Below are positions 44,191 to 62,550 of a stretch of 64,000 nt of DNA, piece after piece. The notes under the pieces were generated by a model, which had not been told where the DNA came from, did not search any database, and saw nothing but the letters and a program-made list of their open reading frames with translations. The stretch covers positions 248,001 to 312,000 of the forward strand of contig NZ_JAPCHV010000001.1 of assembly GCF_026107645.2 (NCBI RefSeq), read 5' to 3'. The position numbers were made by a program, and so were the translations under genes. The stretch comes from Flavobacterium sp. MFBS3-15 (GTDB lineage: Bacteria > Bacteroidota > Bacteroidia > Flavobacteriales > Flavobacteriaceae). How positions within the stretch are numbered: position 1 is the first letter of the stretch; every line of letters begins with the position of its first letter.

Positions 44191-44707
44191 AACGGGATAA
44201 GATTGTTGATCGTGAATTTTCTGTTGGGTTGAAATTTTAGTAGTCTGCGTAAACCGTTTTCTATAGAAGCTGATGCGTTTGGTATAGTATCCGAAAAGGC
44301 AGTAATCTTAAAGTATAGCTTAGCTGTAAAATTGTTAATGTTTTTAAGTCCTTATCACATGAACAACCTATTCCGGTGTTTTATACTAATCTCCCTAATA
44401 ACGATATACTCGGTTTATTCGCTGGAGAAGACTGTCTTTTCAAGAGATATTGTACAGCATTACCTGATGTACATGAAGAGGCTCAGTTGAATCCAGTATC
44501 CTGAAAAAGGGGTACGGACCTCTGTATTGGATATGGTATCAGTAAGCTGTATTGCTGGCTGCTAAAAATATAATCCTACATCCTGCTCATAGCTGTGGAT
44601 TTAACGATAGCCAGCGATTTCTGTACCCATTTTTCTTAACACCATAATTTTTTCAGGGCTTGGATCAACCCAGAATTCCACTATTAAGCAGCGATAATTT
44701 ACATAAT
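44191..44707. other. Low-complexity accessory gap with a possible small ORF
   Basis: About 500 AT-rich bases. The minus-strand frame of the preceding fragment extends into it to about 44307. On the plus strand, ATG at 44359 opens 43 codons to 44490 (MNNLFRCFILISLITIYSVY, then SLEKTVFSRD), which looks like a signal peptide followed by a short tail. No ribosome-binding site or longer continuation is clear. The rest shows no gene. Confidence 0.35.
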
Positions 44708-45567
44708 ATGAAGTTTAGAATTAAAGTATTAAAGGTTTGACAATAGCGCTACCTATATTGGCCTGTTTCTGTGTCAATGCTCAGGAAAGCGCTGCGTATA
44801 CAAGATTTACCGGCAGCAACAAAGGCAAATTTTTCATATCCTGGGGAGGGAATCGCGAACATTATACAAGGTCGGATATCCGGTTTACCGGCAGCAATTA
44901 TGATTTTACATTACATAACACCAAAGCGCATGATGTGCCCAAGGGTATGCATGTGGATTATATCAATCCGGCGAGGATGACCATCCCGCAAACTAATTTT
45001 AAAATAGGGTATTATTTCAGTGACCATTATTCGGTTGCGATAGGGGTAGATCATATGAAGTATGTGGTATCCCAGCAGCAGTGTGTGCCTATAAGCGGCA
45101 CTATCAGCATACCGGGCTCGCAATTTTATGGCAGCTATCACGGGGAGTCCATTACCATTATCCCGGAATTTTTAGCATTTGAGCATACTGATGGGCTCAA
45201 TTACGTTAATGTTGAGCTGGCCCGGACTGATGATGTGGGGCAGTACCTGTTTTCCGTAAATGGGGATATTGTTCAGATCAACTTTATGTCCGGCGTTTCA
45301 GGAGGCTTTCTCTATCCCCGGACAGATGCTACACTGCTGGGCAAGCAGCGTAACAATGAATTCCATGTTGCGGGTTATGGTGCTGCGGCAAAAGGAGGCG
45401 CTAATCTAACATTCTTCAAATACTTCTTTATCCAGGCAGAGCTGAAAGCAGGGTATATCAACCTTACGGATATACGTACTACCAATAGCAGGGCCGATAA
45501 AGCAATACAGCAATTCGGGTTCCTGCAGACAAATATTTCGGTTGGCGCACTATTCAGGCTTTATTGA
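44708..45567 (+). pseudogene. Outer-membrane beta-barrel protein with frame-interrupted signal peptide
   Basis: ATG at 44708 reads MKFRIKVLKV and stops at TGA; moving one base back (from 44737) continues as LTIALPILACFCVNAQE, the rest of a signal peptide, and then ~255 intact residues. Loss of one T in the GGTTTGAC run would explain it. Alternatively the gene starts at the TTG at 44737 and is functional. The mature part alternates hydrophobic/polar residues (NFKIGYYFSDHYSVAIGVDH, GYINLTDIRTTN) and ends VGALFRLY, the aromatic end of an outer-membrane barrel. The family is not recognised. A convergent SYLF gene follows. Confidence 0.6.
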
Positions 45568-46519: not shown

Positions 46520-47212
46520 CTACAAGGAGTAGCGGCCAAAGAAGTCCTCCACGAATGTTTTTCCAAGGGGGAATTTTCGCCCACAACCAAAGATAACAGT
46601 TCCCTTTACTGCCTCAATCCTCTTAAAAGGCAGGATAAAACTCCGATGCACACGGATGAATTCATCCGGGTCCAGCTTTTCCATCATTTCTTTCATTGCC
46701 ATCCTGGCCACGATCGTCCTGCGGTTTTCGATGTAAATTTTGAGGTAATCGGCTAAGCCTTCAATGTAGAGGATATCAGCGAGAGGAACCTGCATAAGGC
46801 TAAAGTCGGCACGTATAAAGATGCTTTTGCCCGAACTTTGGTCTCTTCTCCCGATATGATTAAAATGCTCCAGTGCTTTGTGGAGGGCCTGTGAGAACCG
46901 TCTCTCATCAATGGGTTTCAACAGGTAATCGATCGTTCCCAATTCATAACTGAGGGCTGCATAGTCGCTGAACGCGGTTGTGAAGATCACCATTGCCGGG
47001 TAGGGCAGGGACCTCACCAGGCTGATCCCGTCCATTACCGGCATCTGTATGTCGCAAAATATGAGGTCAGCAGGGTATTTCCGCAAATATTTCAATGCTT
47101 TTACGGGGCTGGTGAATGTCTTTTGCAGATTGATGGTTTCGGTGGCACTGCATAACGTTGCAATGGCGTTAAGTGCCAGGGGCTCATCATCTATGGCAAT
47201 CGCATTAATCAT
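46520..47212 (-). CDS. LytTR family response regulator (second, at the end of the pump operon)
   Basis: 230 residues: receiver domain with acidic pocket Asp8/Asp9 and phosphorylation site Asp54 (LIFCDIQMPVMDG), then a LytTR DNA-binding domain (~125-230, DILYIEGLADYLKIYIENRR, FIRVHRSFI, GCGRKFPLGKTF). LytTR proteins bind pairs of ~9-bp direct repeats. Its start overlaps a 45-codon ORF by 8 bases, and that ORF begins 3 nt after the pump gene, so it belongs to the pump operon. No kinase is beside it; it may share the LytS kinase at 54 kb. Confidence 0.92.
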   Translation of the reverse strand: MINAIAIDDEPLALNAIATLCSATETINLQKTFTSPVKALKYLRKYPADLIFCDIQMPVMDGISLVRSLPYPAMVIFTTAFSDYAALSYELGTIDYLLKPIDERRFSQALHKALEHFNHIGRRDQSSGKSIFIRADFSLMQVPLADILYIEGLADYLKIYIENRRTIVARMAMKEMMEKLDPDEFIRVHRSFILPFKRIEAVKGTVIFGCGRKFPLGKTFVEDFFGRYSL

Positions 47213-47345: not shown

Positions 47346-50300
47346 CTAAATGGTTTTTTTTTGTTTTGCAAAGCTGATGAGGTTGTCAACGATCATATAA
47401 ACGCACGGGACGACAAACAAAGTCAGGAGCATTGAACTGGTGAGCCCACCGATAATGACCCATGCCATGCCGTTTTTCATCTCTGAGGCGGCTCCCCCTG
47501 CCAGTGCGATGGGAAGCATCCCGAAGATCATGGAAAGCGTAGTCATCAAAATTGGGCGAAGCCTTTCCCTGCAGGCCTCAAGCAGCGCTTTCTCCGCTGA
47601 GTTGCCCTCGGCCTTCAGCTTATTGGCAAAGTCGACGATCAGTATCGCATTTTTTGACACAAGGCCCAGTAGCATGATCATGCCGATAATGGTAAAAATG
47701 TTGATGGATTCCATCGTAAGGGCAAGTGCGAGCAAGGCGCCCACAAGGGCTACTGGTATCGAAAATAGCACCACAAACGGGTATACCGCATTTTCATACA
47801 GCGCTACCATGATCAGGTAGACCAGTACAAAAGCCGTTATCAGGGCAAGGATGAGGTTGCCGAAGGCATCTCCCTGGTTTTTGGTCTCTCCAAGGTATTC
47901 GACACTGATCCCCGGTGGTAATTTAATAGCCTTTGCCTGTGCCTTTATCTCATCGCTGACCGTGCCGGTGGGGCGGCCCGTAACGCCAGCCTGCACCGTA
48001 ATGGCTGAGAGGCGGTCAATACGCTGTAAGGTGGTTTCCCCGAGTGTTTCGCTTACTTGTGCAAACTGGCTCAGGAGGATGGTGTTTCCGTCTGAATTTA
48101 CAAAAGGGAGGTTACGGACATCTTTAATGTCCGCGCGATTATAGCCCGACTGGCGGACCATGATATCGAATTCATTACCTTCTTCTTTAAAAAGGCTTTC
48201 ATCATTCCCGCTGAACGAATTTTGGAGGATAGCACCTACCTGGGTAGCATCAAGCCCTAACAGGCTCATCTTACCGCGATCGAGCTTTACCTCGATCTCA
48301 GGGGCCTGGTCCTTGACGGAAAGCTTTACGAATTGCGTACCGGGCACCCGGGTAACCCCTTTAAGATAATCTTGCGCCACCGCCCGCACCTTTTTCATAT
48401 CAACGCCTTTAATTGCGATCTCTATAGGTGCGCTGTCAGCCTCCCCGGTAGGCGATATCGACCCTGTGCTGAATTTCACCCCGGGTATGGCCGTGCTGAG
48501 CTGTTGCTGGATGGCATTGCCTAATTCTTCGGCAGACCGTTCCCGTTCCTCCTTATCCACAAGGGTTACGGTCAGTTCCGCAATATTGGCATTGCTATCG
48601 CTTCCCGAGACGTTGCCGGAGGCAAACCCGACGCTGGAGAATACCTTTTGCACCTCCGGCTGCTGCAGGATTATTTTCTCTGCTTCCTGTACGCTCATAT
48701 TTGTCCTGTAGAGGGTCGAGGTGGCTTCCAGTTCCATGGTAAGGATAAAATCGCCCTGGTCGGTCTCCGGCATAAAATCTGCCCCGATGAACCCGGCAGG
48801 GACCAGCGCGACAGAACCCCCGATGAGCAACGTGGTGAGAAGCAGCAGCCATCTCTTCTTGTGCAGCACCTTTTCCAAAAGCCTTCCGTACTCGTTCTTC
48901 AGGCTTTCGAGGAATCGTTCGAAGCGCAGCCTGGCGCTGCCCCAAAGGGTATTGCTGCGCAGGTGTTCAAGCCTCCCGAAGCGGCTGGCCAGCAACGGCG
49001 TGATCGTAAAGGAAACAAAGAGGCTCATTAGGGTCGAGAACACGACCACAAGCGAAAATTCCTGTAGCAGCCCGCCGATCATCCCGCCACTCAAGGCAAG
49101 GGGGAGGAACACCACTACATCAACCAATGTGATGGAGAGAGCGGTAAAGCCGATCTCATCACGCCCCACCAGGGAGGCAGTACGCTTATCGATTCCCTTT
49201 TCCATATGGCGGTATATATTCTCAAGCACCACGATGGAATCGTCGACAAGTATGCCTACCACCAGCGAGAGGGCCATGAGCGTCATAAGGTTCAGCGAAA
49301 ATCCCAATAGGTATATTGCAATAAATGTAGGTATGATAGAGGCGGGGAGAGCCACCAGTACGAAAAGGGAACTCCTGAGGCTGTGCAGGAATGCCAGCAT
49401 TACGATGCCTACAATAATAACGGCAAGCATCAGGTCGTACATAACGGCATCCGCCGCACTGAGGGTGTACACACTGACATCCGAAGATAAGTCAAACTTC
49501 ACGCCATTTTCCCGGTACTGGCTTTCCATATCGGAAAATACCTCCTTAACCATTTTACTTACACTGACCGCATTGGCATCGCTTTGCTTGATGACCTGCA
49601 GGCCGACTGACGGGATCCCGTTGCTGTGGTTGATGGTCAGTATGTCGGAGGACAGGTCCGCCACTTCAGCCACGTCCATTAGGTATACCGCGCCCTGTGC
49701 CGGATGCTGGAATACCACCAGTTCCCGCAACTGGTCGAGCGAGCGGATATTGGCATCAAACCGGATGGAGAGCTGTTGGTCACGCGTTTCGATGCTCCCC
49801 GCAGGGAACGAAAGGTTGGCATTGGCTATGGCGCTGGTCACCTGCCCGATGCTCAGGCCATAGGCCATAAGCCTGTCCTGGTTGACATTTATCCGGATCT
49901 CCCGTTCTTCCCCGCCGATGATATCCACCTGCCCCACGCCGGTAACATTTCGCAGGATGGGCCTTAGCTGCTTATCCATCAGATTGTACAGGTCCCTGGG
50001 CGCCATATCCGCGGTTACAGCAGCCTTTATGACAGGGGCTTCCTGCATATTAATCTTGTTTACCTGAGGCCTTCCGGCAGCTTCCGGCAAATCATCCATT
50101 ACCTGGTCCGCTTTCCGCTGTACATCCCTTTCGGCCTTGTCGATATCCGTGCCGCTCTTGAAGATGAGCTTTATACCGGCATCACCTTCCCGGGAAGTCG
50201 AGTGGAGCGATTCGAGCCCTTCGATGGATGAGAAAGCATCTTCGAGTTTCTTTGTGACACTTGTCTCCACTTCTGCCGCCGAGGCGCCGGGGTACAGGAT

Positions 50301-50444
50301 GCTTACGGAAACCTCCGGTATAGAAAAACCGGGTAGCAGGTTGTAGTTCAGGCTCAGGTAGGACGTTACACCAAAGTAAATGAGTATGGTAAAGAGCACG
50401 ATCAGCAGCAGGGGCCTTTTTATGGCTATAGCGGTTATTGACAT
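47346..50444 (-). CDS. RND efflux pump, inner-membrane transporter (HAE-1/AcrB type)
   Basis: A 1032-residue transporter, full family length. N-terminal TM1 (PLLLIVLFTILIYFGV), large periplasmic loop, TM2-6, second loop and TM7-12. The proton-relay pair Asp401-Asp402 in GILVDDSIVVLENI marks the hydrophobe/amphiphile class, not the heavy-metal (CusA) class. It pumps lipophilic compounds from the inner membrane or periplasm through a TolC channel, with the adaptor encoded 2 nt upstream. The specific substrate is unknown. Confidence 0.95.
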   Translation of the reverse strand: MSITAIAIKRPLLLIVLFTILIYFGVTSYLSLNYNLLPGFSIPEVSVSILYPGASAAEVETSVTKKLEDAFSSIEGLESLHSTSREGDAGIKLIFKSGTDIDKAERDVQRKADQVMDDLPEAAGRPQVNKINMQEAPVIKAAVTADMAPRDLYNLMDKQLRPILRNVTGVGQVDIIGGEEREIRINVNQDRLMAYGLSIGQVTSAIANANLSFPAGSIETRDQQLSIRFDANIRSLDQLRELVVFQHPAQGAVYLMDVAEVADLSSDILTINHSNGIPSVGLQVIKQSDANAVSVSKMVKEVFSDMESQYRENGVKFDLSSDVSVYTLSAADAVMYDLMLAVIIVGIVMLAFLHSLRSSLFVLVALPASIIPTFIAIYLLGFSLNLMTLMALSLVVGILVDDSIVVLENIYRHMEKGIDKRTASLVGRDEIGFTALSITLVDVVVFLPLALSGGMIGGLLQEFSLVVVFSTLMSLFVSFTITPLLASRFGRLEHLRSNTLWGSARLRFERFLESLKNEYGRLLEKVLHKKRWLLLLTTLLIGGSVALVPAGFIGADFMPETDQGDFILTMELEATSTLYRTNMSVQEAEKIILQQPEVQKVFSSVGFASGNVSGSDSNANIAELTVTLVDKEERERSAEELGNAIQQQLSTAIPGVKFSTGSISPTGEADSAPIEIAIKGVDMKKVRAVAQDYLKGVTRVPGTQFVKLSVKDQAPEIEVKLDRGKMSLLGLDATQVGAILQNSFSGNDESLFKEEGNEFDIMVRQSGYNRADIKDVRNLPFVNSDGNTILLSQFAQVSETLGETTLQRIDRLSAITVQAGVTGRPTGTVSDEIKAQAKAIKLPPGISVEYLGETKNQGDAFGNLILALITAFVLVYLIMVALYENAVYPFVVLFSIPVALVGALLALALTMESINIFTIIGMIMLLGLVSKNAILIVDFANKLKAEGNSAEKALLEACRERLRPILMTTLSMIFGMLPIALAGGAASEMKNGMAWVIIGGLTSSMLLTLFVVPCVYMIVDNLISFAKQKKTI

Positions 50445-50446
50445 GG

Positions 50447-51511
50447 TTACTGTTTTTTTGAATGCTTGATTACTGTACCGTCTTTCAGGTTGATCTGCCC
50501 TGATGTGATAACCTGTTCCCCTGCCAGGAGCCCGGCTGTCACTTCCACCTTGCTGCCGTATTGCAGTCCAACGGTTATCGCGCGCAGGACGGCCTTATCG
50601 TCTTTTGCTACATAGACAGCAGCCTCCTGTGTCCCCTGATTTAGCGCAGCTCTTGGGATTAGCAGGACTTTCCGCTGCGTCTTCGTTGAGAAATCCGCAG
50701 AAACGAACGTGCCGGAGCGCAGGGGATATTGCCCATCATTGGCGGCAGTTACCTCTACCTGGTAGTTATTGGCCTGGTTGGCCCTTGGGCTTATGAAACT
50801 AATGGTGCCGGCAAAGGCCTTCCCGGGATAAATCGACGTGGTAAGCGTAATCGCCTGACCCTGCCGTACCTGGTAAACCTCGGACTCGGTAAGGTTGACC
50901 TGGACTTTTAATCCGGAGAGGTCTACAATCGTAGCGATCTCCGTGCCGATACCTGCAAAAGTCCCTTCCTCTATCGGCCTGGAGGCGATGATGCCGCCCA
51001 CCGGTGCCCTTACCGTAGCATCAGCAATCTGCCTGCGCAGCTGCATGGCCTGATTCAGTGCGTCGCTGTAGCCCTGCCTGACCTCGTCCACCTTTTGTTC
51101 TGTTGCGGCCTGGCCCTGGTAGAGTTCGGTATAGGTCTGTAGATCCCTCTTTAATTTTATAGCGTTGGACTCGGCTTTTTGGAGTTCGAGCTCCAGCACC
51201 CGGGTGTCAATCACAGCAAGGGGCTGTCCCTCGGTAACCCGGTCACCGAGCTGGAACATCAGCCGTAGGACCGTCCCATTGCTTGCCGACAGGGCAGTGC
51301 CTTCCCTGGCCGCTGCCAGTTTGCCCGTCTTGACCAGCCTTATCTCCTGCATTTCTTCCGAGGCGGTGGCAATGGTGACGGGAATACGGATATCATATGC
51401 AGCTGCGGCCGTAGCGCTTTCGCTGATCTTATTGCGGTTGGACACCAGCCTGTAGGCAATGGCGCTGACAATGCCTGCGCCAATCAGGATCAAGAGGAGT
51501 TTTTTCTTCAT
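50447..51511 (-). CDS. RND efflux periplasmic adaptor (HlyD/AcrA family)
   Basis: A 354-residue membrane fusion protein with an N-terminal anchor (KKKLLLILIGAGIVSAIAY). Order of parts: beta-barrel and lipoyl half (SNGTVLRLMFQLGDRVTEGQ), alpha-helical hairpin ~110-165, second lipoyl half (DATVRAPVGGIIASRPIEEG), beta-barrel, and membrane-proximal domain (GLLAGEQVITSGQINLKDG). It bridges the pump and TolC. Its start overlaps the TolC gene stop by four bases and the pump gene begins 2 nt after its stop. Confidence 0.93.
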   Translation of the reverse strand: MKKKLLLILIGAGIVSAIAYRLVSNRNKISESATAAAAYDIRIPVTIATASEEMQEIRLVKTGKLAAAREGTALSASNGTVLRLMFQLGDRVTEGQPLAVIDTRVLELELQKAESNAIKLKRDLQTYTELYQGQAATEQKVDEVRQGYSDALNQAMQLRRQIADATVRAPVGGIIASRPIEEGTFAGIGTEIATIVDLSGLKVQVNLTESEVYQVRQGQAITLTTSIYPGKAFAGTISFISPRANQANNYQVEVTAANDGQYPLRSGTFVSADFSTKTQRKVLLIPRAALNQGTQEAAVYVAKDDKAVLRAITVGLQYGSKVEVTAGLLAGEQVITSGQINLKDGTVIKHSKKQ

Positions 51512-52839
51512 CGGTCGAGGGAGTTATAGAAGTTTTTGAGTGTGCCGGCGGCCTTTTCGAAATCGGCACGCGCCTGGTAATGCAGGTAAAGGGAGCCCAG
51601 GTAATTGTTTTGGGCTTCCTTAAGGGCATATTGGGTATTGAGCCAGTCCGTAAGGTCGGTAGTGCCCTTGCGGAATTGCAGGTCGGTTATGCTAAGTACT
51701 GATTCGGCAAGGATGACGTTCCTTTTATCATTTTCAATGCTTATCTCCGCCTGCAGGAGCCTGGTCCGCGCGTTTTCATATTCCATGATGTATTTGCGCC
51801 CGGCCAGCGTAAGGCTTTCCCCGGCATTGGCCGTATTGATGCTCGCCTGCCGATACTGTGCGCCGCGCCTGAAGAAATCAAATACGGGGATGCTGAGTTT
51901 CAGGCCCACGGTAGAATAGGGCAGCATATCATCATAGGAATCTTTGAAATGGTCCGAAAAGCTCACGGCCCCATAGCGGAAGTAGGCGGAAAGCTTCGGC
52001 AGGGCTTCTGCCCTGATGCGCGACTGCTCTGTTTCGAGTACTTTGATATTGAGTTCCGAGATCCTGTAATCCGTCCTGGCGGACGGGGAAAATGTATCTT
52101 CCGCGCCCTGCGGCAAAGGCGGTAGCGCTATTTCATCGGCAATATGCAGCAAGATGGGCTCGTTAATAGGATATCCCATCTCGTACTTGAGCTGGTTCTC
52201 TGCGAGCCGGAGATTGCTTTGTGCTACCCTTATCTGCGAGGCGGTGTTGTTGAAGTCGACCGTAACCTTATCCAGGTCCTTCTGCAATGCGACCCCTTTC
52301 TCCACCTGCAGCCGGTAAATGTCCTGCTGCCTGGCGTAGGTTTCATTGTTGTACCCCAGCAGCCTGAGCTGCTGCGTATAGACCAGTATCTGGAAATAGG
52401 CGATGCTGATATTATAAATAATCGCCTCCTGGGCCTGCTCGAGGGTAAGGTCAGCCTGCTGGCCGAGATACCTGTTGGCTTTCAGTCCGGTAAGGATGGA
52501 CTGATCGTAAAGGACCTGGTTCACTTCTATGACCGCATCCGTCCCATAGCGCTGTCCAAGTGACCCCCTGATCGCCTCGGGGCCGAAGACATTTGCGGGG
52601 ATTACCGTCTGCTGCAGGCGAATGTTGTTATCGAACGAAGCGGTGATGCCGATATTGGGGAGGTAGGCCGCCAGCGCCTCCCTCGCCATGGCATCGGCAG
52701 CCAGTTTCTCGTTGGCATATATCGTATTGTTGCGGTGGTGCTGCAAGCCGTATGCTATGCATTGCTTTAATGACCAGGCCTCCTGTGCGCCCATCTTAAG
52801 GCAAAGGAGCAGGACGGCCAGCATAATTTTATTGCCCAT
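51508..52839 (-). CDS. TolC-like outer-membrane efflux protein
   Basis: A 443-residue outer-membrane factor with signal peptide (~1-20, ending MGAQEAWS). It shows the two-fold repeat of long coiled-coil helices (for example YRLQVEKGVALQKDLDKVTV and GRKYIMEYENARTRLLQAEI) typical of TolC trimers. It starts the pump part of the operon. A 240-bp gap with its own promoter and a LytTR-type direct repeat separates it from the upstream regulator, and AAGGAG lies 15 nt before the ATG. Confidence 0.93.
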   Translation of the reverse strand: MGNKIMLAVLLLCLKMGAQEAWSLKQCIAYGLQHHRNNTIYANEKLAADAMAREALAAYLPNIGITASFDNNIRLQQTVIPANVFGPEAIRGSLGQRYGTDAVIEVNQVLYDQSILTGLKANRYLGQQADLTLEQAQEAIIYNISIAYFQILVYTQQLRLLGYNNETYARQQDIYRLQVEKGVALQKDLDKVTVDFNNTASQIRVAQSNLRLAENQLKYEMGYPINEPILLHIADEIALPPLPQGAEDTFSPSARTDYRISELNIKVLETEQSRIRAEALPKLSAYFRYGAVSFSDHFKDSYDDMLPYSTVGLKLSIPVFDFFRRGAQYRQASINTANAGESLTLAGRKYIMEYENARTRLLQAEISIENDKRNVILAESVLSITDLQFRKGTTDLTDWLNTQYALKEAQNNYLGSLYLHYQARADFEKAAGTLKNFYNSLDR

Positions 52840-52889
52840 ATACTATCGGTTAGCATCTCCTTACAAAAAAGGGATGTGTTATATGGGGC

Positions 52890-52955
52890 CAAAGTAGGGG
52901 AAAGGGCAGCCGGTATTTTTTTAACTATACCAAACCGTGTCATTTCTATACGAAA
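52890..52955 (-). promoter_or_regulatory. tolC promoter with LytTR-type direct repeat
   Basis: In the direction of transcription: TTTCGTATA (complement of 52947-52955), 12 nt, TTTGGTATA (complement of 52926-52934), 32 nt, then TTTG of the -7 sequence TACTTTG (complement of 52890-52896). The repeat period is 21 bp, the spacing of known LytTR sites. No proper -33 box is present, so activator dependence is likely. Confidence 0.65.
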
Positions 52956-53079
52956 TGAAAAGAATGATGCTTTTAGGCACACACCAAAACGTCCGGAGGT
53001 GGGAAATATTGCGGAATAGCCGGATCATGCGACCAAACCATCCCCTTAGGTCATCAACAAAGCAATGGAGGGCTGGGAT

Positions 53080-53802
53080 TTATTTGCTCAGGATCTTCCG
53101 GGTAACGAACTCATTAAAGAAGAAATCCCTGTAGATGTTGCCGATGGGGATTTCGCTCTTGCGGATGTACACGGTGTTGTTGTCCACCGAATCAATCTGC
53201 TTAATGTTGATGATATAGGATTTGCTCACGCGCACAAACATACTTTTTGGCAGGCGGTCGTGTATGGTCTTTATATTCATCAGGGTCATCACCTTCTGGT
53301 TTTCCGTATGTATCACCACATAGTCTTTCAGGCCTTCGATGAAAAGGATGTTATTGAAGTACACCTTGAACATCTTGCGGTCCGCCTTAACAAAGATGTA
53401 GTCGTCGGCAATGGTCTCGATGTTAGTGTTGGCATAATCGGCCTGCAGCAGCTTCAGGTAGGCCTGTGCCTTTTCCACACCTTTCTGGAAGCGTTCCAGC
53501 TTTACGGGCTTGATCAGGTAATCTATCGCCTCGACTTCATAGCTGTCAGTGGCGAATTCATGGAACGCGGTGGTAAAGATCACAAAGGTTTCCTTAGGGA
53601 TTGTCCTGGCAAACTCAATCCCGTTCACCCCCGGCATCTGTATGTCAAGAAAGACCAGGTCGACCTCATTTTTAGACATAAATTCCGTGGCAGCCTCGGC
53701 CCCGTTGAAAGCGCCTATGGATTCCAGGTTATCTGTCTGGTCAATCAGGTGCTGGATCGCTTTTCGCGCCAGGGGCTCGTCATCGACTATGATGCAATTC
53801 AT
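53080..53802 (-). CDS. LytTR family response regulator
   Basis: 240 residues: receiver domain (acidic pocket DDE at 7-9, phosphorylated Asp53 in LVFLDIQMPGVNG) and a LytTR DNA-binding domain (~130-240; NNILFIEGLKDYVVIHTENQ, FVRVSKSYI, IPIGNIYRDFF). It starts 2 nt after the kinase stop codon, so the two form a standard LytS/LytR pair. It is the best candidate to bind the three 21-bp-period direct repeats found at 52926, 54873 and 55110. Confidence 0.94.
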   Translation of the reverse strand: MNCIIVDDEPLARKAIQHLIDQTDNLESIGAFNGAEAATEFMSKNEVDLVFLDIQMPGVNGIEFARTIPKETFVIFTTAFHEFATDSYEVEAIDYLIKPVKLERFQKGVEKAQAYLKLLQADYANTNIETIADDYIFVKADRKMFKVYFNNILFIEGLKDYVVIHTENQKVMTLMNIKTIHDRLPKSMFVRVSKSYIINIKQIDSVDNNTVYIRKSEIPIGNIYRDFFFNEFVTRKILSK

Positions 53803-53804
53803 AC

Positions 53805-54818
53805 CTATAATTTTAAAGTTAATGAAACGCTGTAGGTTTCAGGATTATCCTCTATGTGCAGCAAGTGCGCTGAGGGAAAGAGCAATTCAAGCCTGCGCCT
53901 GATATTCGCCAGCCCCAGCCCCCCGGATTTACTAACGGCCTTCAGGACGGGCTTTGAGTTGACGCATTTAAAGAAAACCTCGTTGTCCCTGACCTTGAAA
54001 AACAGGTTGACATAGGATGATTTCGCGGAATCGTTATTGTGCTTGACGGCATTTTCCACAAAAGAGATGAACAATAGCGGGGGTACCTGGACACCGCTGA
54101 GATTTCCTTCTTTGGATATCATAAAATCAAAATTATCGCGCCTAACCTTTTCCAAATTTAGAAAATCTTCCAGGAAGTGGATGTCGGAAGTCAATAAAAC
54201 TTTATCCCTTGCGCTGTCATACAACTGGTAGCGCAGCAAATCACTTAGCTTTACCAGGACCTGCGAGGCTTTTTCCGGGTCTTCCTTGGTAAGGACATTG
54301 GCGTTATTGAGCATATTGAATAAAAAATGCGGGTTGATCTGGTTCTTAAGCTGTTCCAGCTCCGCCGAGGATTTTGATTTTTCCAGCTCATGGATCAACT
54401 GCTTGTCCACTATCCATTTCTGGAATACCTGCATCGATGACGAGGCAGCAATAATTACAAGGATAAGCGTGTAGAACAAAGGTATGTTCAATCCGTCAAT
54501 GTTGGAGTCCAGGCCAAAAAGATAACAGCCGAACAGGTAGATCTTGACCGACAGGAGCAGCACAGCTAAAACCGACAGGCAGTACAGGGTGTACTTGTTC
54601 TTGAACAGGAGTCGGGGCACCAGCAAATAGATATTGGTGTAAAACAGCAGCAGGAACAGCACCAGGGTCAGGGTAGGCTCCTTAACCTCCGGCCCGCTGT
54701 TATACAGTACCAGGCTGATGACGGCAACCAGCAATAGCTGGCGGTACACCCTGTATCTGGAGGCCGTTAGGAACTGGAATACCCAATTCTCGTTGATATA
54801 TGGCGAATTTTGTTTCAT
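53805..54818 (-). CDS. LytS-type membrane sensor histidine kinase
   Basis: The ATG at 54818 gives 337 residues; a TTG seven codons upstream overlaps the -7 box and is rejected. Four transmembrane helices (~25-43, 50-66, 78-104, 112-128) are followed by a coiled coil and the His_kinase domain (PF06580) with NPHFLFN (His164), then the ATPase part (ENAVKHNND, GGLGLANIRRRLELL). It has no large extracellular sensor, so it probably senses a membrane-soluble or envelope signal. It heads the operon that leads to the efflux pump. Confidence 0.92.
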   Translation of the reverse strand: MKQNSPYINENWVFQFLTASRYRVYRQLLLVAVISLVLYNSGPEVKEPTLTLVLFLLLFYTNIYLLVPRLLFKNKYTLYCLSVLAVLLLSVKIYLFGCYLFGLDSNIDGLNIPLFYTLILVIIAASSSMQVFQKWIVDKQLIHELEKSKSSAELEQLKNQINPHFLFNMLNNANVLTKEDPEKASQVLVKLSDLLRYQLYDSARDKVLLTSDIHFLEDFLNLEKVRRDNFDFMISKEGNLSGVQVPPLLFISFVENAVKHNNDSAKSSYVNLFFKVRDNEVFFKCVNSKPVLKAVSKSGGLGLANIRRRLELLFPSAHLLHIEDNPETYSVSLTLKL

Positions 54819-54836
54819 AGTTAAAGTTATATCAGG

Positions 54837-54902
54837 CAAATTTAGGCGATACGCCTATAGGCAAATATATATTATACGAAAGCATATTTTTAATATACGA
54901 AA
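54837..54902 (-). promoter_or_regulatory. Kinase-operon promoter with LytTR-type direct repeat and palindromic spacer
   Basis: On the minus strand: TTTCGTATA (54894-54902), 12 nt, TTTCGTATA (54873-54881), then TATATTTG (54862-54869) whose TTTG can serve as -33, 17 nt, and TAAATTTG (54837-54844) as -7. The distance from the repeat to the -7 TTTG is 32 nt. The spacer contains two overlapping palindromes, AGGCGATACGCCT and GCCTATAGGC (54844-54862), a possible second operator. Confidence 0.7.
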
Positions 54903-55109
54903 ATATATTTAGCACTCCTGCTCCCCTGATCAGTAAACGCTGCAAACCTGCGCAACAATGTTCCTGCACTGCGGAATAGAGGGCAGGGAAACTACCCCCT
55001 AGAAACCCTGCAGGCAACACAACCTATCCAAACCTAAGAAAATGCGCTGTGTGCTGCAATGAGGCCCTAAATGGAGATGCCGTATTAATTTGGTCGTGCA
55101 GGCACCTGT
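54903..55109. other. Divergent intergenic region between kinase operon and TonB gene
   Basis: Part of a gap of about 390 bases between the divergent genes. Apart from the promoter elements listed on either side, no ORF, hairpin or RNA feature is apparent here. Confidence 0.4.
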
Positions 55110-55175
55110 TTTTCTATAGCAGGGGACCTGTTTGGTATATATAAAAAATAGTGGGTTTCATAAAAATATACTTTA
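55110..55175 (+). promoter_or_regulatory. TonB-receptor promoter with LytTR-type direct repeat
   Basis: TTTTCTATA (55110-55118), 12 nt, TTTGGTATA (55131-55139), 32 nt, then TTTA of TACTTTA (55169-55175) as a -7-like box. Orientation, 21-bp period and 32-nt distance are the same as at the kinase and tolC promoters; the first half-site differs from TTTCGTATA at two positions. Confidence 0.6.
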
Positions 55176-55211
55176 GTCCAAGATTTCACTAATTAATTCA
55201 AATTTTCAAAA

Positions 55212-56354
55212 ATGGAGAACAAAATCTTTTATGCATTGCTCCTGCTGCTCACAACGGCGCTCAATGCCTTTTCACAAGAGAAAGTCACCCTGAGCGGAAC
55301 CATCGCTGACAAGGCGAACAACGAGACACTGATCGGCGTTGGCATCTATATCCCGGAGGCTAATGCGTCGTTTACGACGAACTCCTATGGATTTTATTCC
55401 ATTACCCTGCCCAAGGGAGACTACACGATCATCATCAGCTATATCGGCTTTGATGACGTGCAGGAGCGCATTTCCCTGACCGAGAACACGAAAAGGGATT
55501 TTGTTATGCTTGAAAACAGCACGGAACTGCAGGAAGTCGTTGTCTCATCCAATGCAACCAAAACAAACATACGTAAACCGGAGATGAGCGTGAACAAACT
55601 TTCGATAGCCACCATAAAAAAGATGCCAGCGGTCCTGGGTGAGGTGGACGTGCTGAAATCAATACTGACCCTGCCAGGGGTGACCAATGCACAGGAAGGC
55701 GCATCGGGATTCAATGTGAGGGGTGGCTCGGTGGATGGCAACCTTGTCCTGCTGGATGAGGCCGTGGTATACAATACCTCGCATCTCTTCGGGTTTTTCT
55801 CCGTCTTCAACTCCGATGTCATAAAAGACCTGAAACTATATAAAGGGGGTATCCCCGCCAATTTCGGGGGCCGCATCTCCTCGGTCCTGGATATCTACCA
55901 GAAAGAAGGAAACAATAAGGAATACCATGTGACTGGCGGCCTGGGCCTTATTTCCAGCAGGCTATTGGTCGAGGGGCCTATCGTAAAGGAAAAAAGCTCG
56001 TTCGTGGTAGCAGGAAGGGGCTCTTACATACACCTGTTCCTGAAGCTGGCAGATGAGCCGAATTCGGTCTACTTCTATGACCTGAATGCCAAGCTCAATT
56101 ATAAGATCAACGAGAACAATAACATTTTCCTGTCCGGCTATTATGGGTATGACTATATGAATTTCGGCGATGCGCTGATCAATGGTTATGGCAATTCCCT
56201 TCTCAATGTCAGGTGGAACCATATCTTCTCGGATAAGCTCTTTTCCAACGCCTCGGCCATCCTCAGTGATTACGATTATGAGCTGAAAATAAAGTTTGCG
56301 GGCCTGAACTGGAAATCCGAGCCTTTGCTTATTATCCAGACGAGAGCCAGCTGA
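55212..56354 (+). pseudogene. TonB-dependent receptor truncated at a rearrangement junction
   Basis: 380 codons: signal peptide (~1-21), carboxypeptidase-like domain (TLSGTIADKANNETLIGVGI), plug (KSILTLPGVTNAQEGASGFN, VRGGSVDGNLVLLDEA) and the first barrel strands. It aligns along its whole recognisable length with the 802-residue receptor at 60142-62550. Homology ends at Ser369 (GLNWKS, matching GIDWTS) at about 56318; the last 11 codons are unrelated and are the reverse strand of the neighbouring reductase. About half the barrel is missing, so it cannot work. It shares the regulatory repeat of the efflux operon. Confidence 0.88.
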
Positions 56355-57181
56355 GAAGGCGTTATATTTTTTTCTGATGCTAAATTTTCAATTGCATTAA
56401 CCAGTTCAATATTCTTATAGAAGTGCTCCGGCTGGAAGCGTGGGATGTTCCTGCGGAAATCATTTTCCGGCAGGTCATCAATAGTTTTAATATGGCCCGA
56501 TAAAAAGCCCCGGCCAAGGGGTGAGTAGGCAACGAAGCCAATTTGCAGTTCATTTAATGTATCTAATATTCCCCGTTGCTCCACACTTCGTTCAAATAAC
56601 GAGTATTCACTTTGCACAGCGGTAATAGGGTGAACCTCGTACGCCCTCTTTACGGTTTCCGATGAGACCTCCGACAGCCCCAGATAGCCCACTTTGCCTT
56701 CCTTCACTAACTGCGCCATTGCCTCAACAGTTTCTTCTACGGGTGTCGTCTTATCAAGCCTGTGGAGATAGTAAAGGTCAATGTAATCTGTGCCCAGGTT
56801 TTTAAGCGATCGTTCCACGGCTTTCCTTACATATTCTTTTTTTCCATTAATAGCCCACGTAACTTTGTTGTTATCATCAATTTCCCAACCAAACTTTGTA
56901 GCAATAATGTATTGGTCCCTTTTGCCTTTAATAGCTTTTGCAATAAGCTGCTCATTTTTAAAAGGCCCGTAAAGGTCTGCCGTGTCCAGAAAATTACCGC
57001 CCATTTCAAGGGAGCGATGTATGGTGGCTATGGCTTCCTTTTCATCTGCAGGGCCATACATGTTTCCTTCTTCAAAACCGGTCATGCCCATACAGCCTAG
57101 TCCGATAACGGGGACGGTAAGTCCCTGATTTCCTAAAGATCTTGTTTTCATTATATTATTATTTATAATTTCCTGATACAA
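56276..57181 (-). pseudogene. Aldo/keto reductase truncated at the same junction
   Basis: The likely start is the ATG at 57151 (MKTRSLGNQGLTVPVIGLGC). Catalytic residues are present: Asp and Tyr in NFLDTADLYGP, Lys in IATKFGW, His in LYYLHRLD. Homology to the family ends at LALVWIISKG (about 56322); active members continue with a cofactor-binding loop and ~50 more residues. Here 14 unrelated codons, antisense to the TonB receptor, follow. Loss of the NADPH-binding C-terminus should abolish activity. Confidence 0.85.
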
Positions 57182-59300: not shown

Positions 59301-60137
59301 TTAATTAATTGTATAGGATGTAGTATCAAATTCGCCCAGTCTGAAATACCCCAATACCTCTTCGTTTGGATTATTGACATTAATACAGTTTCCCTTTAAC
59401 TGTACAGGGGTTGTAGGAAAAGGCCCGTTTTCATCACTACCTGATTGTTGGATCAATATATATAAATAGTTATAATATCGTCGCGAGATACCATACACAT
59501 TAATGCCTACATTGACTCCGGCTACATAGTTATCATTATCGTTCTCAATAAAATTTTCATTGCCATCCGTAAATTCATCGCTAATAACTGCAAGGGCCGG
59601 CAGCGGTAAATTAGAAGGGACAAATTCGCCTAAATAATAATTTTCAATACCTGCGAAATCATCAAAAAACACCTGAAGCTGAATTTCTGTGTCCTCGCCT
59701 GAACCTTCAATAGTTTGCTCAACCCGATTAATAAATGGTGCTGGAATTAAGGTTTCGGTCGCCCTGTAGACGTTGCCGTTATAGAGAATTTCCAAAGTAT
59801 ACGATGCGTTTAATTCAGGAACAAAATCACTGGTAGTGTAGCTGCCATTATTTTGGTCTGTAAATACAAATACTGATCCGTCATTTTCTTTGGTTACTGT
59901 TACTGAAGCACCCGTAACAGGGGCGTCCGGATTGCTATCAAAAAAAGGTGTTGATTGCCTTAAATTAATAGTTTGTGTTTCTCCTGTAGTACCTTTTTGC
60001 CATTTAATGGATGCATCAACCACTAATCTTGCCCCACCGTTGGGTACGTTAACATCTATTACATCTGTACACGAGTAAAAAAATCCGATTATAACCAGGA
60101 GTGCCGCTAATTTGCTGTATAAATTTATGTTTTTCAT
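59301..60137 (-). CDS. DUF4249 lipoprotein, partner of a TonB receptor
   Basis: A 278-residue lipoprotein (signal ends FFYSC, Cys23, then TDVIDVNV). The DUF4249 pattern is clear: LVVDASI..., then PVTGASVTVTKENDGSVFVF, then ASYTLEILYNGNVYRATETL. It follows the TonB receptor by 4 bp on the same strand. In Bacteroidota such pairs occur widely, with the lipoprotein thought to sit at the surface on the receptor. Cargo unknown. Confidence 0.9.
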   Translation of the reverse strand: MKNINLYSKLAALLVIIGFFYSCTDVIDVNVPNGGARLVVDASIKWQKGTTGETQTINLRQSTPFFDSNPDAPVTGASVTVTKENDGSVFVFTDQNNGSYTTSDFVPELNASYTLEILYNGNVYRATETLIPAPFINRVEQTIEGSGEDTEIQLQVFFDDFAGIENYYLGEFVPSNLPLPALAVISDEFTDGNENFIENDNDNYVAGVNVGINVYGISRRYYNYLYILIQQSGSDENGPFPTTPVQLKGNCINVNNPNEEVLGYFRLGEFDTTSYTIN

Positions 60138-60141
60138 TGTC

Positions 60142-62550
60142 TTAAAAATTAAAATTGTAAGTTACTGAAGGTACTATGCCAAATATGGAAGTGCGGGTGG
60201 CTTCCGTTACGCCCGTCTGTTGGTTTTGACCAAAAGAAATAGAAGCTGCATTTCTTCGATTATAAGCGTTATAGATGCCAAACACCCATTCTCCCTGCCA
60301 TTTTCTGTTCTTATTATTATGAGGTGTTAAGGTTGCAGAAAGATCCAGCCTGTGGTAGGCCGGCAATCGGTCCGCATTCCTTTCGGAGTAGGTGGCCACA
60401 GATAAACCGTTATATAGAAACTGACCGTTAGGATAGGTAACAGGTCGTCCTGTCTGGAACACCATATTAGCGCCGAATCGCCATTTTTCGCTGAGCCTGT
60501 AAGTTCCGGTAAACGAAAAGTCGTGGGTCCTGTCCCAGTTGGAATTATACCATTTCCCGTTGTTAATGCCTAATCCGCCAGCTGCTCCCCCGGGTGTACG
60601 CTGCTGGGATTTTGATAACGTATACGCCACCCAGCCTGTAAAATCGCCTTGGTTTTTGCGCAGCAGGAACTCTAATCCATAAGCCCGGGCTTCACCAGTC
60701 AAAATTTCGGTTTCAATAGTGTTTTGTGCTATAAGTTCTGCGCCGTTAATATAATCTACCCTGTTGTCAATAGTTTTATAATACGCTTCGGCTTCAATCG
60801 AAAACATGTTTTCCCTGAAATTCCTGAAATAGCCTACAGCATATTGGTTTGCAATTTGTGGCTCAATAAATTCTCCGCTCGGCGCCCAGACATCTAATGG
60901 AGTGGCTGATGTCGTATTTGAAATCAGGTGCAAGTACTGCGCTATCCGGTTATAACTTGCTTTAACAGAAGACTTTTCGTTAAGCTGGTAGGAGAGTGCG
61001 AACCGGGGTTCTAAATTATTGAATGTAGCGATGCTCTTGCCCTTACCGTAATGCGTAGTTGAAATGGGTTCGGCACGCTCATAAATGCCTAATTCCTCGT
61101 TGTAAACTACCGGTAAATTATTGGCATAGTTGTTTAAGGTTTGCTTTCCAAGCCGGTTAAAGTAGCTAAAACGCAAGCCGTATTGAGCGGTCAGCCTGTC
61201 GGAAATTTTGTGTTCCAAACCTGCATATACTCCGGCCTCTACAGCAAATTTGTCATCTAATTTCTCCGGATTTACACCCGAATTTGCGTTTAAAGGGTTG
61301 AGCTTGCCAGGATTAAAGTTGTAATAAATGCCGCTTACCCCAAAGTCAAATTTTAATTTATCGCTTGCATAGTACCCAAAGTCATAGCGCATATTATAAT
61401 TGCTTATATCAGAAGTCCAGTCAATTCCTTCAATGGGAATTTCCAGGTTGTAATTATACCGGCTGTATATCAGGGAAACGTTGGAGAATAACTTATCATT
61501 AAAAATATGGTTCCATCGCAGGTTTCCTGATAAGTTTCCGTATGAATTGGTAAAAAATCCTGCCAGGTTAAAATTATCATTTCCTAAATAACCAGATAGG
61601 TACAGTTTGTTCTTTTCATCAATTTCATAATTTGTTTTCAGATTGAAATCATAAAATCCGGCCCTGCTGCTTTCGTTAGCTAAGGCTAAGAATATATTTG
61701 CATAAGAAGCCCTGCCCGCTATCAGGAACGAACCTTTATCTTTAAGCATTGGCCCCTCCGCGGCCAAACGGCTTGAAATCAAACCTATTCCGCCAGTGAG
61801 CTCATACTCTTTACTGTTCCCGTCTTTTTGGCGAATGTCCAAAACGGAAGATGCCCGCCCTCCAAAACGTGCAGGAATACCTCCTTTATAAAGCTTAATA
61901 TCCTTAATAGCATCAGCGTTAAATACAGAGAAGAAACCAAACAAGTGGGAAGCGTTATAAATAATTGCTTCGTCTAGGAGAATCAGGTTCTGGTCTTCTG
62001 CGCCACCCCGCACATTAAAGCCCGATGCGCCTTCGCCGGCATTGGCAACACCCGGCAGCAATTGTATGGACTTGATCAGGTCAACTTCACCCAAAACTAC
62101 TGGTATCTTTTTGATGTCGTTAGCAGAGAGTTTTGTCATACTCATTTGTGGTGTCCTAAGGTCTACTTTCTTTGATTGCTCAGCAGTGATGACAACTTCA
62201 TCTAATTCGGCTGCATCTTCTGTGAGCTCAATGTCGATTTTTTGATCAGCGTTAAGGGATATAACCCTTTCAAAAGTGCTAAATCCTAAATAAGAAATAG
62301 TTAAGGTGTAATCACCTTCAGGCGCTGTGATCGAATAAAAACCATATTCGTTGGTTGTGCTTCCAATGGAAGTGCCTTTTAAGAGAACAGTCGCCCCTAA
62401 GACTGTTTCACCGTTGGCAACATCCTTTACTACACCACTAATTGTGTATTTTGTCTGTGCAAAAAAGAATACCGGATACAACATTGCCATTACAAATAAT
62501 GCCTGCCCTTTTCCTGATTTAAAAGGTTTAAATCGCTTTTTTCTTGTCAT
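60142..62550 (-). CDS. TonB-dependent receptor with carboxypeptidase-like domain
   Basis: 802 residues: signal anchor (~15-31), carboxypeptidase-like domain (~33-115, YTISGVVKDVANGETVLGA), plug (~125-235, LIKSIQLLPGVANAGEGASG, FNVRGGAEDQNLILLDEA) and a 22-strand barrel ending FGIVPSVTYNFNF. It is the full-length homologue of the truncated receptor at 55.2 kb. Located upstream of, and coupled to, the DUF4249 lipoprotein. Ligand not known; no iron or sugar enzyme is next to it. Confidence 0.93.
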   Translation of the reverse strand: MTRKKRFKPFKSGKGQALFVMAMLYPVFFFAQTKYTISGVVKDVANGETVLGATVLLKGTSIGSTTNEYGFYSITAPEGDYTLTISYLGFSTFERVISLNADQKIDIELTEDAAELDEVVITAEQSKKVDLRTPQMSMTKLSANDIKKIPVVLGEVDLIKSIQLLPGVANAGEGASGFNVRGGAEDQNLILLDEAIIYNASHLFGFFSVFNADAIKDIKLYKGGIPARFGGRASSVLDIRQKDGNSKEYELTGGIGLISSRLAAEGPMLKDKGSFLIAGRASYANIFLALANESSRAGFYDFNLKTNYEIDEKNKLYLSGYLGNDNFNLAGFFTNSYGNLSGNLRWNHIFNDKLFSNVSLIYSRYNYNLEIPIEGIDWTSDISNYNMRYDFGYYASDKLKFDFGVSGIYYNFNPGKLNPLNANSGVNPEKLDDKFAVEAGVYAGLEHKISDRLTAQYGLRFSYFNRLGKQTLNNYANNLPVVYNEELGIYERAEPISTTHYGKGKSIATFNNLEPRFALSYQLNEKSSVKASYNRIAQYLHLISNTTSATPLDVWAPSGEFIEPQIANQYAVGYFRNFRENMFSIEAEAYYKTIDNRVDYINGAELIAQNTIETEILTGEARAYGLEFLLRKNQGDFTGWVAYTLSKSQQRTPGGAAGGLGINNGKWYNSNWDRTHDFSFTGTYRLSEKWRFGANMVFQTGRPVTYPNGQFLYNGLSVATYSERNADRLPAYHRLDLSATLTPHNNKNRKWQGEWVFGIYNAYNRRNAASISFGQNQQTGVTEATRTSIFGIVPSVTYNFNF

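Follow-up and report, generated by a model that had tools for sequence, protein, structure and literature searches.

A conserved 30-bp direct repeat as the predicted operator of a LytTR two-component system in Flavobacterium and other Bacteroidota

Regulators of the LytTR family are known for operators in which two direct repeats lie ahead of a promoter. In the published accounts, consulted here as excerpts, the LytTR Regulatory Systems carry such a pair immediately 5′ of the −35 element, usually with 12 bp between the repeats, and positive autoregulation of its own operon was shown for HdrR (PMC6193735); AgrA binds direct repeats upstream of its promoters (PMC4227749). We analysed a 64,000-nt stretch of the Flavobacterium sp. 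MFBS3-15 genome (contig NZ_JAPCHV010000001.1, positions 248,001 to 312,000 of the forward strand; hereafter the window), in which a 30-bp repeat, TTTSGTATA-N12-TTTSGTATA, recurs at promoters of a locus encoding a histidine kinase, a LytTR response regulator (LytTR1), an RND efflux pump and a TonB-dependent receptor. Sequence comparison makes it highly probable that the repeat is the LytTR1 operator and that LytTR1 activates its own operon, the divergent TonB receptor operon and, here, also the tolC-hlyD-RND operon.

The arrangement of two direct repeats ahead of a promoter is common to this locus, AgrA, HdrR/BrsR and the LytTR Regulatory Systems of Firmicutes and other bacteria, but, as far as the excerpted descriptions go, the half-site here differs (TTTNGTATA) and the promoter is of the Bacteroidota σA type. 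The LytTR Regulatory Systems also pair a regulator with a membrane protein, whereas the neighbour here is a histidine kinase and the regulator bears a receiver domain. The nearest published relative found is a Bacteroides operon resembling these systems (Btheta7330_RS19915/RS19920; Table 3, excerpt of PMC6193735), likewise of LytTR type and with repeats just 5′ of a TATCTTTG promoter; it differs in being another operon, in its 11-bp repeats at 11-bp spacing (TCCGGTATTCA...), presumed by the authors of that work, and in a regulator with transmembrane segments. The best NCBIfam matches of LytTR1 were BtsR and LytR (NF008677, E 2.2e-35; NF010684, E 1.2e-30), which have the same domains; because its scores of 122 and 107 bits fall far short of the respective equivalog cut-offs, 246 and 375 bits, LytTR1 is neither BtsR nor LytR itself. 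Two-component LytTR systems are abundant in Bacteroidota. LytTR regulator mutations were reported from a flavobacterial coevolution experiment (PMC10197871) and regulator counts, LytTR included, for flavobacteria (PMC5395568), with no binding site described in the excerpts of either. Among the matches listed by a literature search that had preprints and most subscription journals outside its reach, we found no published description of the half-site TTTGGTATA or of the operator, and no published binding site for a soluble two-component LytTR regulator of Bacteroidota. The repeat geometry and the LytTR family are thus already known, and it is the half-site that is without a published report among those matches.

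The initial annotation of the window had recognised three pairs, ahead of tolC, the kinase operon and the divergent TonB receptor. All three are real and lie where they had been placed, with no mismatch at 52926-52955(−) and 54873-54902(−) and two at 55110-55139(+), both in the upstream half-site; a fourth, at 44257-44286(+), had been missed. The candidate operators and their predicted −7 boxes are:

54873-54902, minus strand: operator 1, TTTCGTATA-N12-TTTCGTATA, 5′ of the kinase-LytTR1 operon; matrix score 36.2 bits, R1 genome E 7.5e-7
54837-54844, minus strand: predicted −7 box of the kinase operon, TAAATTTG, 28 nt past operator 1; 6/6 consensus positions
52926-52955, minus strand: operator 2, TTTCGTATA-N12-TTTGGTATA, 5′ of tolC-hlyD-RND; 35.9 bits, E 3.5e-7
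52889-52896, minus strand: predicted −7 box of the tolC operon, TACTTTGG, 29 nt past operator 2; 5/6 positions
55110-55139, plus strand: operator 3, TTTTCTATA-N12-TTTGGTATA, 5′ of the truncated TonB receptor gene; 26.0 bits, E 4.7e-7
55169-55176, plus strand: predicted −7 box of the TonB receptor gene, TACTTTAG, 29 nt past operator 3; 5/6 positions
44257-44286, plus strand: operator 4, TTTTCTATA-N12-TTTGGTATA, perhaps a relic of the TonB promoter; 27.2 bits, E 5.5e-6
44316-44323, plus strand: predicted −7 box, TAGCTTAG, 29 nt past operator 4; 5/6 positions

The scores derive from a weight matrix of 143 sites of relatives, with the window left out, and from R1, a sequence-only, position-aware model of 65 sites, all from other genomes. 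The matrix separated the four sites (36.2, 35.9, 27.2 and 26.0 bits) from everything else in the window, the next score, 5.0 bits, belonging to a position that overlaps operator 3; six letter-shuffled windows gave no more than 5.5 bits. R1 returned the four operators and nothing more from the window, and the same four from the whole 4.0-Mb genome (E 3.5e-7 to 5.5e-6; next best E 0.25), with 150 of 2550 first-look candidates scored. All four fall inside 11 kb. Sites scattered at random over the genome would have told against the original proposal, and R1 did not show the motif to be common in that way. The exact pattern occurs in the 3,992,226 bases of the genome only at 52926 and 54873; the variant half-site TTTTCTATA is common to operators 3 and 4. 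The earlier argument that the recurrence is no accident was borne out, as the window contained 4 matches at up to three mismatches against 0.28 expected and none of 100 shuffles gave 4. A chance origin of the pairs was ruled out by the window shuffles, the exact genome scan and the R1 genome scan. Five two-mismatch matches elsewhere in the genome (L005-L009; −8.6 to 9.8 bits) were rejected as noise, and the three-mismatch matches (L010-L030) had top scores of just 14.8 and 14.7 bits. At three mismatches the genome gave 14 + 18 matches, fewer than the 23 + 19 of the reversed control, and loose pattern counts alone are therefore worthless.

In Flavobacterium psychrophilum, the primary sigma factor has TAnnTTTG as its −7 consensus (excerpt of PMC9723704), and the window boxes match it at 6/6 positions at the kinase promoter and at 5/6 at the other three. 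The spacing, first described as identical, proved nearly so: 32 nt do separate the three pairs known at the outset from TTTG, TTTG and TTTA, but once the boxes are aligned the distance is 28 nt at the kinase promoter and 29 nt at the other three. The same preference was found among relatives when sites with up to two mismatches were counted. Of 74 kinase promoters, 24, 35 and 7 had TAnnTTTG (at least 5/6) at offsets 28, 29 and 30; among 68 divergent promoters the figures were 24, 38 and 2, and any other offset from 0 to 42 nt was occupied at most 6 and 3 times, respectively; the pair is promoter-proximal, with the box 28-30 nt past it at most sites. A third half-site, 21 bp further upstream, was present in 29/69 divergent promoters versus 4/76 kinase promoters (33 in total at offset −21 versus 0-10 at the remaining offsets from −28 to −15). 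Three half-sites in 21-bp register were seen at the receptor promoters of L159, L165, L166, L168, L175, L179, L181, L182, L184, L185 and L202.

The two genes proposed to form the regulatory pair are:

53805-54821, minus strand: sensor histidine kinase, PF06580 His_kinase (Pfam E 4.7e-23); N-terminal transmembrane part assigned by eye
53080-53802, minus strand: LytTR1, response regulator and proposed binder; PF00072 (E 2.8e-21) and PF04397 (E 1e-17), both above cut-off

LytTR1 has the architecture of a response regulator, a receiver domain followed by a LytTR DNA-binding domain. Compared with solved structures by phmmer, it matched mostly receiver-domain chains among the 60 of 103 matches listed, one of which, ComE 4cbv, aligns to residues 37-212 and so extends into the LytTR domain. 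The PF06580 kinase gene lies directly upstream of LytTR1 and the pair is retained in the loci fetched; we infer that the two proteins are partners.

Conservation within the genus was assessed from a kinase search of 398 genomes, scoring the five best candidates in each. A kinase orthologue (E ≤ 1e-50) was found in 33 genomes at 38 places, those of the 32 other genomes being 37-69% identical. We then sought TTTNGTATA-gap-TTTNGTATA in the 400 nt preceding the kinase at 37 places and in the window. With a gap of 12, the pair was present at 22, 28, 34 and 35 of the 38 loci at up to 0, 1, 2 and 3 mismatches, versus no exact match and at most 4, 9 and 23 loci at 1, 2 and 3 mismatches for gaps of 4-11 and 13-21. 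Reversed half-sites gave 0, 1, 1 and 3, and 40 shuffled half-sites gave means of 0, 0.08, 1.5 and 6.3 with maxima of 0, 1, 15 and 29. Because shuffled half-sites reach 15 and 29 loci at two and three mismatches, the evidence sits in the exact and one-mismatch counts. Three loci of other families with kinases 34-37% identical (L064-L066) were left out of the count; they had no site at up to three mismatches within the fetched stretch. An exact scan of the whole genus (gaps 6-18) gave matches in 154/398 genomes, with reversed-pattern controls of similar order, and R1 was therefore used instead. At E ≤ 3e-4, with 12 candidates scored per genome under stricter filters, R1 found the operator in 36/398 genomes: in 32 of the 33 with a kinase orthologue (G206 being the one without) and in 4 of the 365 without, the latter a lower bound (at least 4/365).

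A second, named set comprised the best 80 loci from a LytTR1 search of GTDB genomes, with LytTR1 up to 81% identical. It includes Flavobacterium, Pedobacter, Olivibacter, Niastella, Chitinophaga, Mucilaginibacter and Taibaiella, as well as Chryseobacterium, Epilithonimonas, Algoriphagus, Dyadobacter and Bacteroidales. At the 56 usable of 57 non-Bacteroidales loci (L162, lacking upstream DNA, was dropped), the pair with a gap of 12 was found 47, 53, 53 and 53 times at up to 0, 1, 2 and 3 mismatches. Gaps of 6-11 and 13-19 gave at most one locus at one mismatch, with a single exact case at gap 14, and reversed half-sites gave 0, 0, 0 and 6. A motif-free test, which accepted any 9-mer repeat with a −7 box at 28-30 nt, detected period 21 in 50/56 loci and any other period from 12 to 33 in no more than 11. 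Measured against the family rule of ~9-bp direct repeats 11-13 bp apart, the 12-bp spacer thus stood far above every other one tested. The pair is present upstream of the orthologous operons, as the original proposal needed (34/38 genus and 53/56 named loci at up to two mismatches), but its description as flavobacterial was too narrow: the operator is spread over the phylum, from Flavobacterium to Chitinophaga, Pedobacter and Algoriphagus.

The proposed efflux targets and a second LytTR gene follow on the minus strand, in the order histidine kinase, LytTR1, TolC, HlyD-type adaptor, RND permease, LytTR2:

51508-52839, minus strand: TolC-like outer-membrane efflux protein, PF02321; proposed target
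50447-51511, minus strand: HlyD-family RND periplasmic adaptor, PF13437 and TIGR01730 (above cut-off); proposed target
47346-50444, minus strand: RND efflux permease, PF00873 (E 8.3e-262); proposed target
46520-47212, minus strand: LytTR2, second LytTR response regulator, 3′ of the RND gene, with the same domains as LytTR1; not the favoured binder

TolC orthologues at least 55% identical occur in four other genomes among the 398 of the genus. Three have the operator at the tolC promoter: G235 (36.5 bits), G257 (23.5 bits) and G102 (22.7 bits). The efflux genes adjoin the kinase pair in G102 and G257 and lie ~20 kb off in G235. In the fourth, G230, the tolC orthologue is interrupted by a stop, and neither an operator nor a kinase orthologue at 1e-50 was found; three remoter TolC relatives (29-33% identical) had no site above 3.4 bits with the weight matrix. 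Outside the genus, Chitinophaga ginsengisegetis (L172) has kinase, LytTR1, operator, tolC, hlyD and RND in the order of the window. Because the arrangement recurs in L172, G235, G102 and G257, the placing of this efflux operon under the operator is no peculiarity of the present genome; it is an addition common to a few genomes. Most relatives examined have a TonB receptor with DUF4249 as the divergent target.

On the other side of the kinase promoter lies the receptor gene:

55212-56354, plus strand: TonB-dependent receptor gene, divergent from the kinase, truncated past ~residue 370

The divergent receptor of the initial annotation thus exists, with its promoter site, but as a truncated gene. 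Residues 1-370 of its product (to ~56321) share 80% identity with the F. aquatile receptor (L158), and the sequence beyond them is unrelated. An opposite-strand frame, resembling an aldo/keto reductase by sequence, ends inside the receptor-like stretch (window 55212-57181). The natural reading of the junction near 56321 is a deletion of the receptor's second half, of what followed it and of the end of the reductase gene, although the junction may instead be a misassembly. A TonB receptor with an adjacent DUF4249 gene, divergent from the kinase, was the commonest neighbour in the loci examined, and it resembles BT2172-BT2173, reported to function together in an excerpt that deals with the operon itself and says nothing of how it is regulated (PMC11003636). 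Unlike in that operon, the receptor next to the kinase here is incomplete and lacks a DUF4249 gene downstream. A paralogous TonB receptor with DUF4249 is located at 59301-62550; the idea that this second receptor (60142-62550) is under the same site was ruled out by the matrix scan of the window, which gave only the four sites and none at this gene.

Operator 4 may be related to this receptor promoter. Operators 3 and 4 each stand 72 nt ahead of an ATG, and the 43-residue frame behind operator 4 shows similarity to the F. aquatile receptor's signal peptide (45% over 31 residues; E 0.002 for a 601-base stretch alone, 0.066 among the named loci and 0.028 among the genus loci). Direct comparison showed no such likeness to the window's own receptor. 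Over the 75 bases from operator to ATG, operators 3 and 4 are identical at 33/75 positions, a level reached by 13/2000 shuffles; operator 3 and tolC are already identical at 30/75. These similarities are suggestive only of operator 4 being a decayed copy of the receptor promoter. Nearby, at 44708-45567, lies a 276-residue outer-membrane-like frame whose likely signal-peptide start, judged by eye, is in a different frame, and this gene is probably broken near its start.

In the mechanism we favour, the kinase encoded just upstream of LytTR1 would be its membrane partner and would respond, perhaps, to an envelope or toxic-compound cue. Phosphorylated LytTR1 would place one LytTR domain on each 9-bp half-site, both domains being brought to the same helix face by the 21-bp period. 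The operator would lie just upstream of what we take to be the −33 region, allowing LytTR1 to assist σA RNA polymerase at the TAnnTTTG promoter 28-30 nt downstream. LytTR1 would thereby activate the kinase-regulator operon, generating positive feedback, as well as the divergent TonB receptor operon. The tolC-hlyD-RND efflux operon would be a further target in this genome. We infer the binding, its dependence on phosphorylation and the preference for activation over repression.

Whether LytTR1 might instead repress from this operator, or do both, bears on the sign of regulation, which operator position by itself does not establish; for AgrA, repression of bsaA was reported, with the site immediately 3′ of the promoter (excerpt of PMC4227749). 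The pair precedes the promoter at all four window sites and at most of those in relatives, with 28-30 nt left to the −7 box, a placement that matches the activating LytTR promoters in the excerpts of PMC6193735 and PMC4227749. We consider repression or a dual role unlikely, and activation with positive feedback is favoured because the operator fits the published LytTR rule in every feature tested. Less likely still is binding by LytTR2, or by several LytTR paralogues alike, suggested by the LytTR2 gene just 3′ of the RND gene, by domains identical in kind to those of LytTR1 and by the 33 kinase genomes, each of which has either a number of LytTR relatives or one or more at E ≤ 1e-30. Among the matches listed, however, relatives of LytTR2 (at least 42% identical) occur in 15/32 other kinase genomes, as opposed to the operator in 31/32; with the matrix, 26 kinase loci that lie outside the orthologue set (L035-L060) scored at most 14.3 bits, versus 26-36 bits at the window sites, and 3 of these 26 had a different half-site, GTTGGTTTA, in the same geometry. 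The least plausible alternative, to which we give almost no weight, sees no regulator site in the pattern but an extended promoter, or an upstream AT element, belonging to some Bacteroidota promoters. The pattern is indeed rich in A and T and keeps a constant spacing to the −7 box, but it accompanies the kinase (32/33 genus genomes with it, 4/365 without) and occupies only four places in its own 4 Mb, while variants of TAnnTTTG are the three most abundant promoter motifs of F. psychrophilum in the excerpt of PMC9723704.

Several observations weigh against assigning the operator to LytTR1 as an activator. The kinase and LytTR1 stand beside the operator partly by construction, because the loci were retrieved via one or the other; independent support for LytTR1 comes from conserved position, genome-wide scarcity and co-occurrence, the last of which points to LytTR1 (53080-53802) rather than LytTR2 (46520-47212) as the binder. 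No pair at up to three mismatches was found upstream of the kinase at three of the 37 genus loci (L102, where the kinase match begins inside the gene and the upstream stretch may miss the promoter, L121 and L126) or upstream at three of the 56 named loci (L197, L213 and L214). R1 matches occurred in the kinase-less genomes G153, G161, G290 and G317, and the figure of 32/33 is flattered by R1 training sites that came partly from the scanned genomes. Operator absences in the own-genome and genus R1 scans are not proven, as only part of the candidates was scored. Loose mismatch criteria are weak, with shuffled half-sites reaching up to 15/38 loci at two and 29/38 at three mismatches. The locus counts are not independent, the genomes being related and the named and genus sets sharing at least six contigs (L158, L168, L193, L195, L213 and L233). 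In the window itself, the TonB target is not intact and no long intact gene lies directly behind operator 4. Finally, in the Bacteroidales-type loci, a grouping assigned by hand, the pair lies ~3-5.5 kb upstream of LytTR1, away from the kinase; it was found (up to two mismatches, within 6.5 kb) in 12 of the 21 loci counted, two short ones of the 23 having been dropped, with other gaps giving at most 1, and by eye a −7 box stood at the right distance in 9/23 (L216, L217, L219, L226, L227, L229, L230, L232 and L236). The Bacteroidales-type pairs precede genes named by sequence as TonB-receptor-like (L227, L230, L236) or membrane-protein-like (L216).

The three GTTGGTTTA-N12-GTTGGTTTA pairs (L284:5314, L285:3060 and L286:5221) lie upstream of the kinase and divergent from it, with a −7-like box ~29 nt on and, in L286, a TonB receptor-like stretch behind the pair. 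The same geometry with another half-site at three non-orthologue loci suggests that paralogues may read different words. When the 26 other kinase loci were searched without a motif, 5 showed period 21 and up to 4 any other period, GTTGGTTTA being common to three of the five; a general rule for paralogues is weakly supported. In a single case, L040, the minus strand ahead of the kinase has a period-21 repeat around TTCACTGA, followed after 28-30 nt by a −7-like box. Further candidate operators at L098:6847, L126:10077, 10144 and 14795, L116:5864 and L121:10963 precede genes that look, by sequence, like envelope or secreted ones, so that some genomes may have a larger predicted regulon. Two loci (L193:9552-9953 and L167:9880-10264) contain an additional, incomplete LytTR1-like stretch, situated between the kinase gene and the full-length LytTR1. 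Genome G420 contains head-to-tail arrays of TATACNAAA with a 22-bp period (G420:C1:945129-945291 and 2843508-2843692); pattern matches totalled 30 in G420 and 23 in G184. We can offer only tentatively, at somewhat less than even chances, a wider picture in which Bacteroidota possess a series of mutually insulated kinase-LytTR systems with one geometry (21-bp period, 28-30 nt to TAnnTTTG) and a different 9-bp word for each, the phylum-wide TTTNGTATA system, often with a third in-register half-site at its receptor promoter, controlling the TonB receptor-DUF4249 operon and having repeatedly gained further outer-membrane and efflux operons once the 30-bp cassette came to stand ahead of them.

We conclude that a two-component switch found across Bacteroidota very probably docks on this repeat. 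Here the switch appears to govern its own genes and an outer-membrane receptor together with, more unusually, a drug-efflux pump. A site model valid across the phylum would turn this locus into a testable regulator-target pair. The operator would provide a first handle on when proteins of the TonB receptor-DUF4249 family are produced, and would show how an RND efflux pump comes under a receptor-linked sensor.

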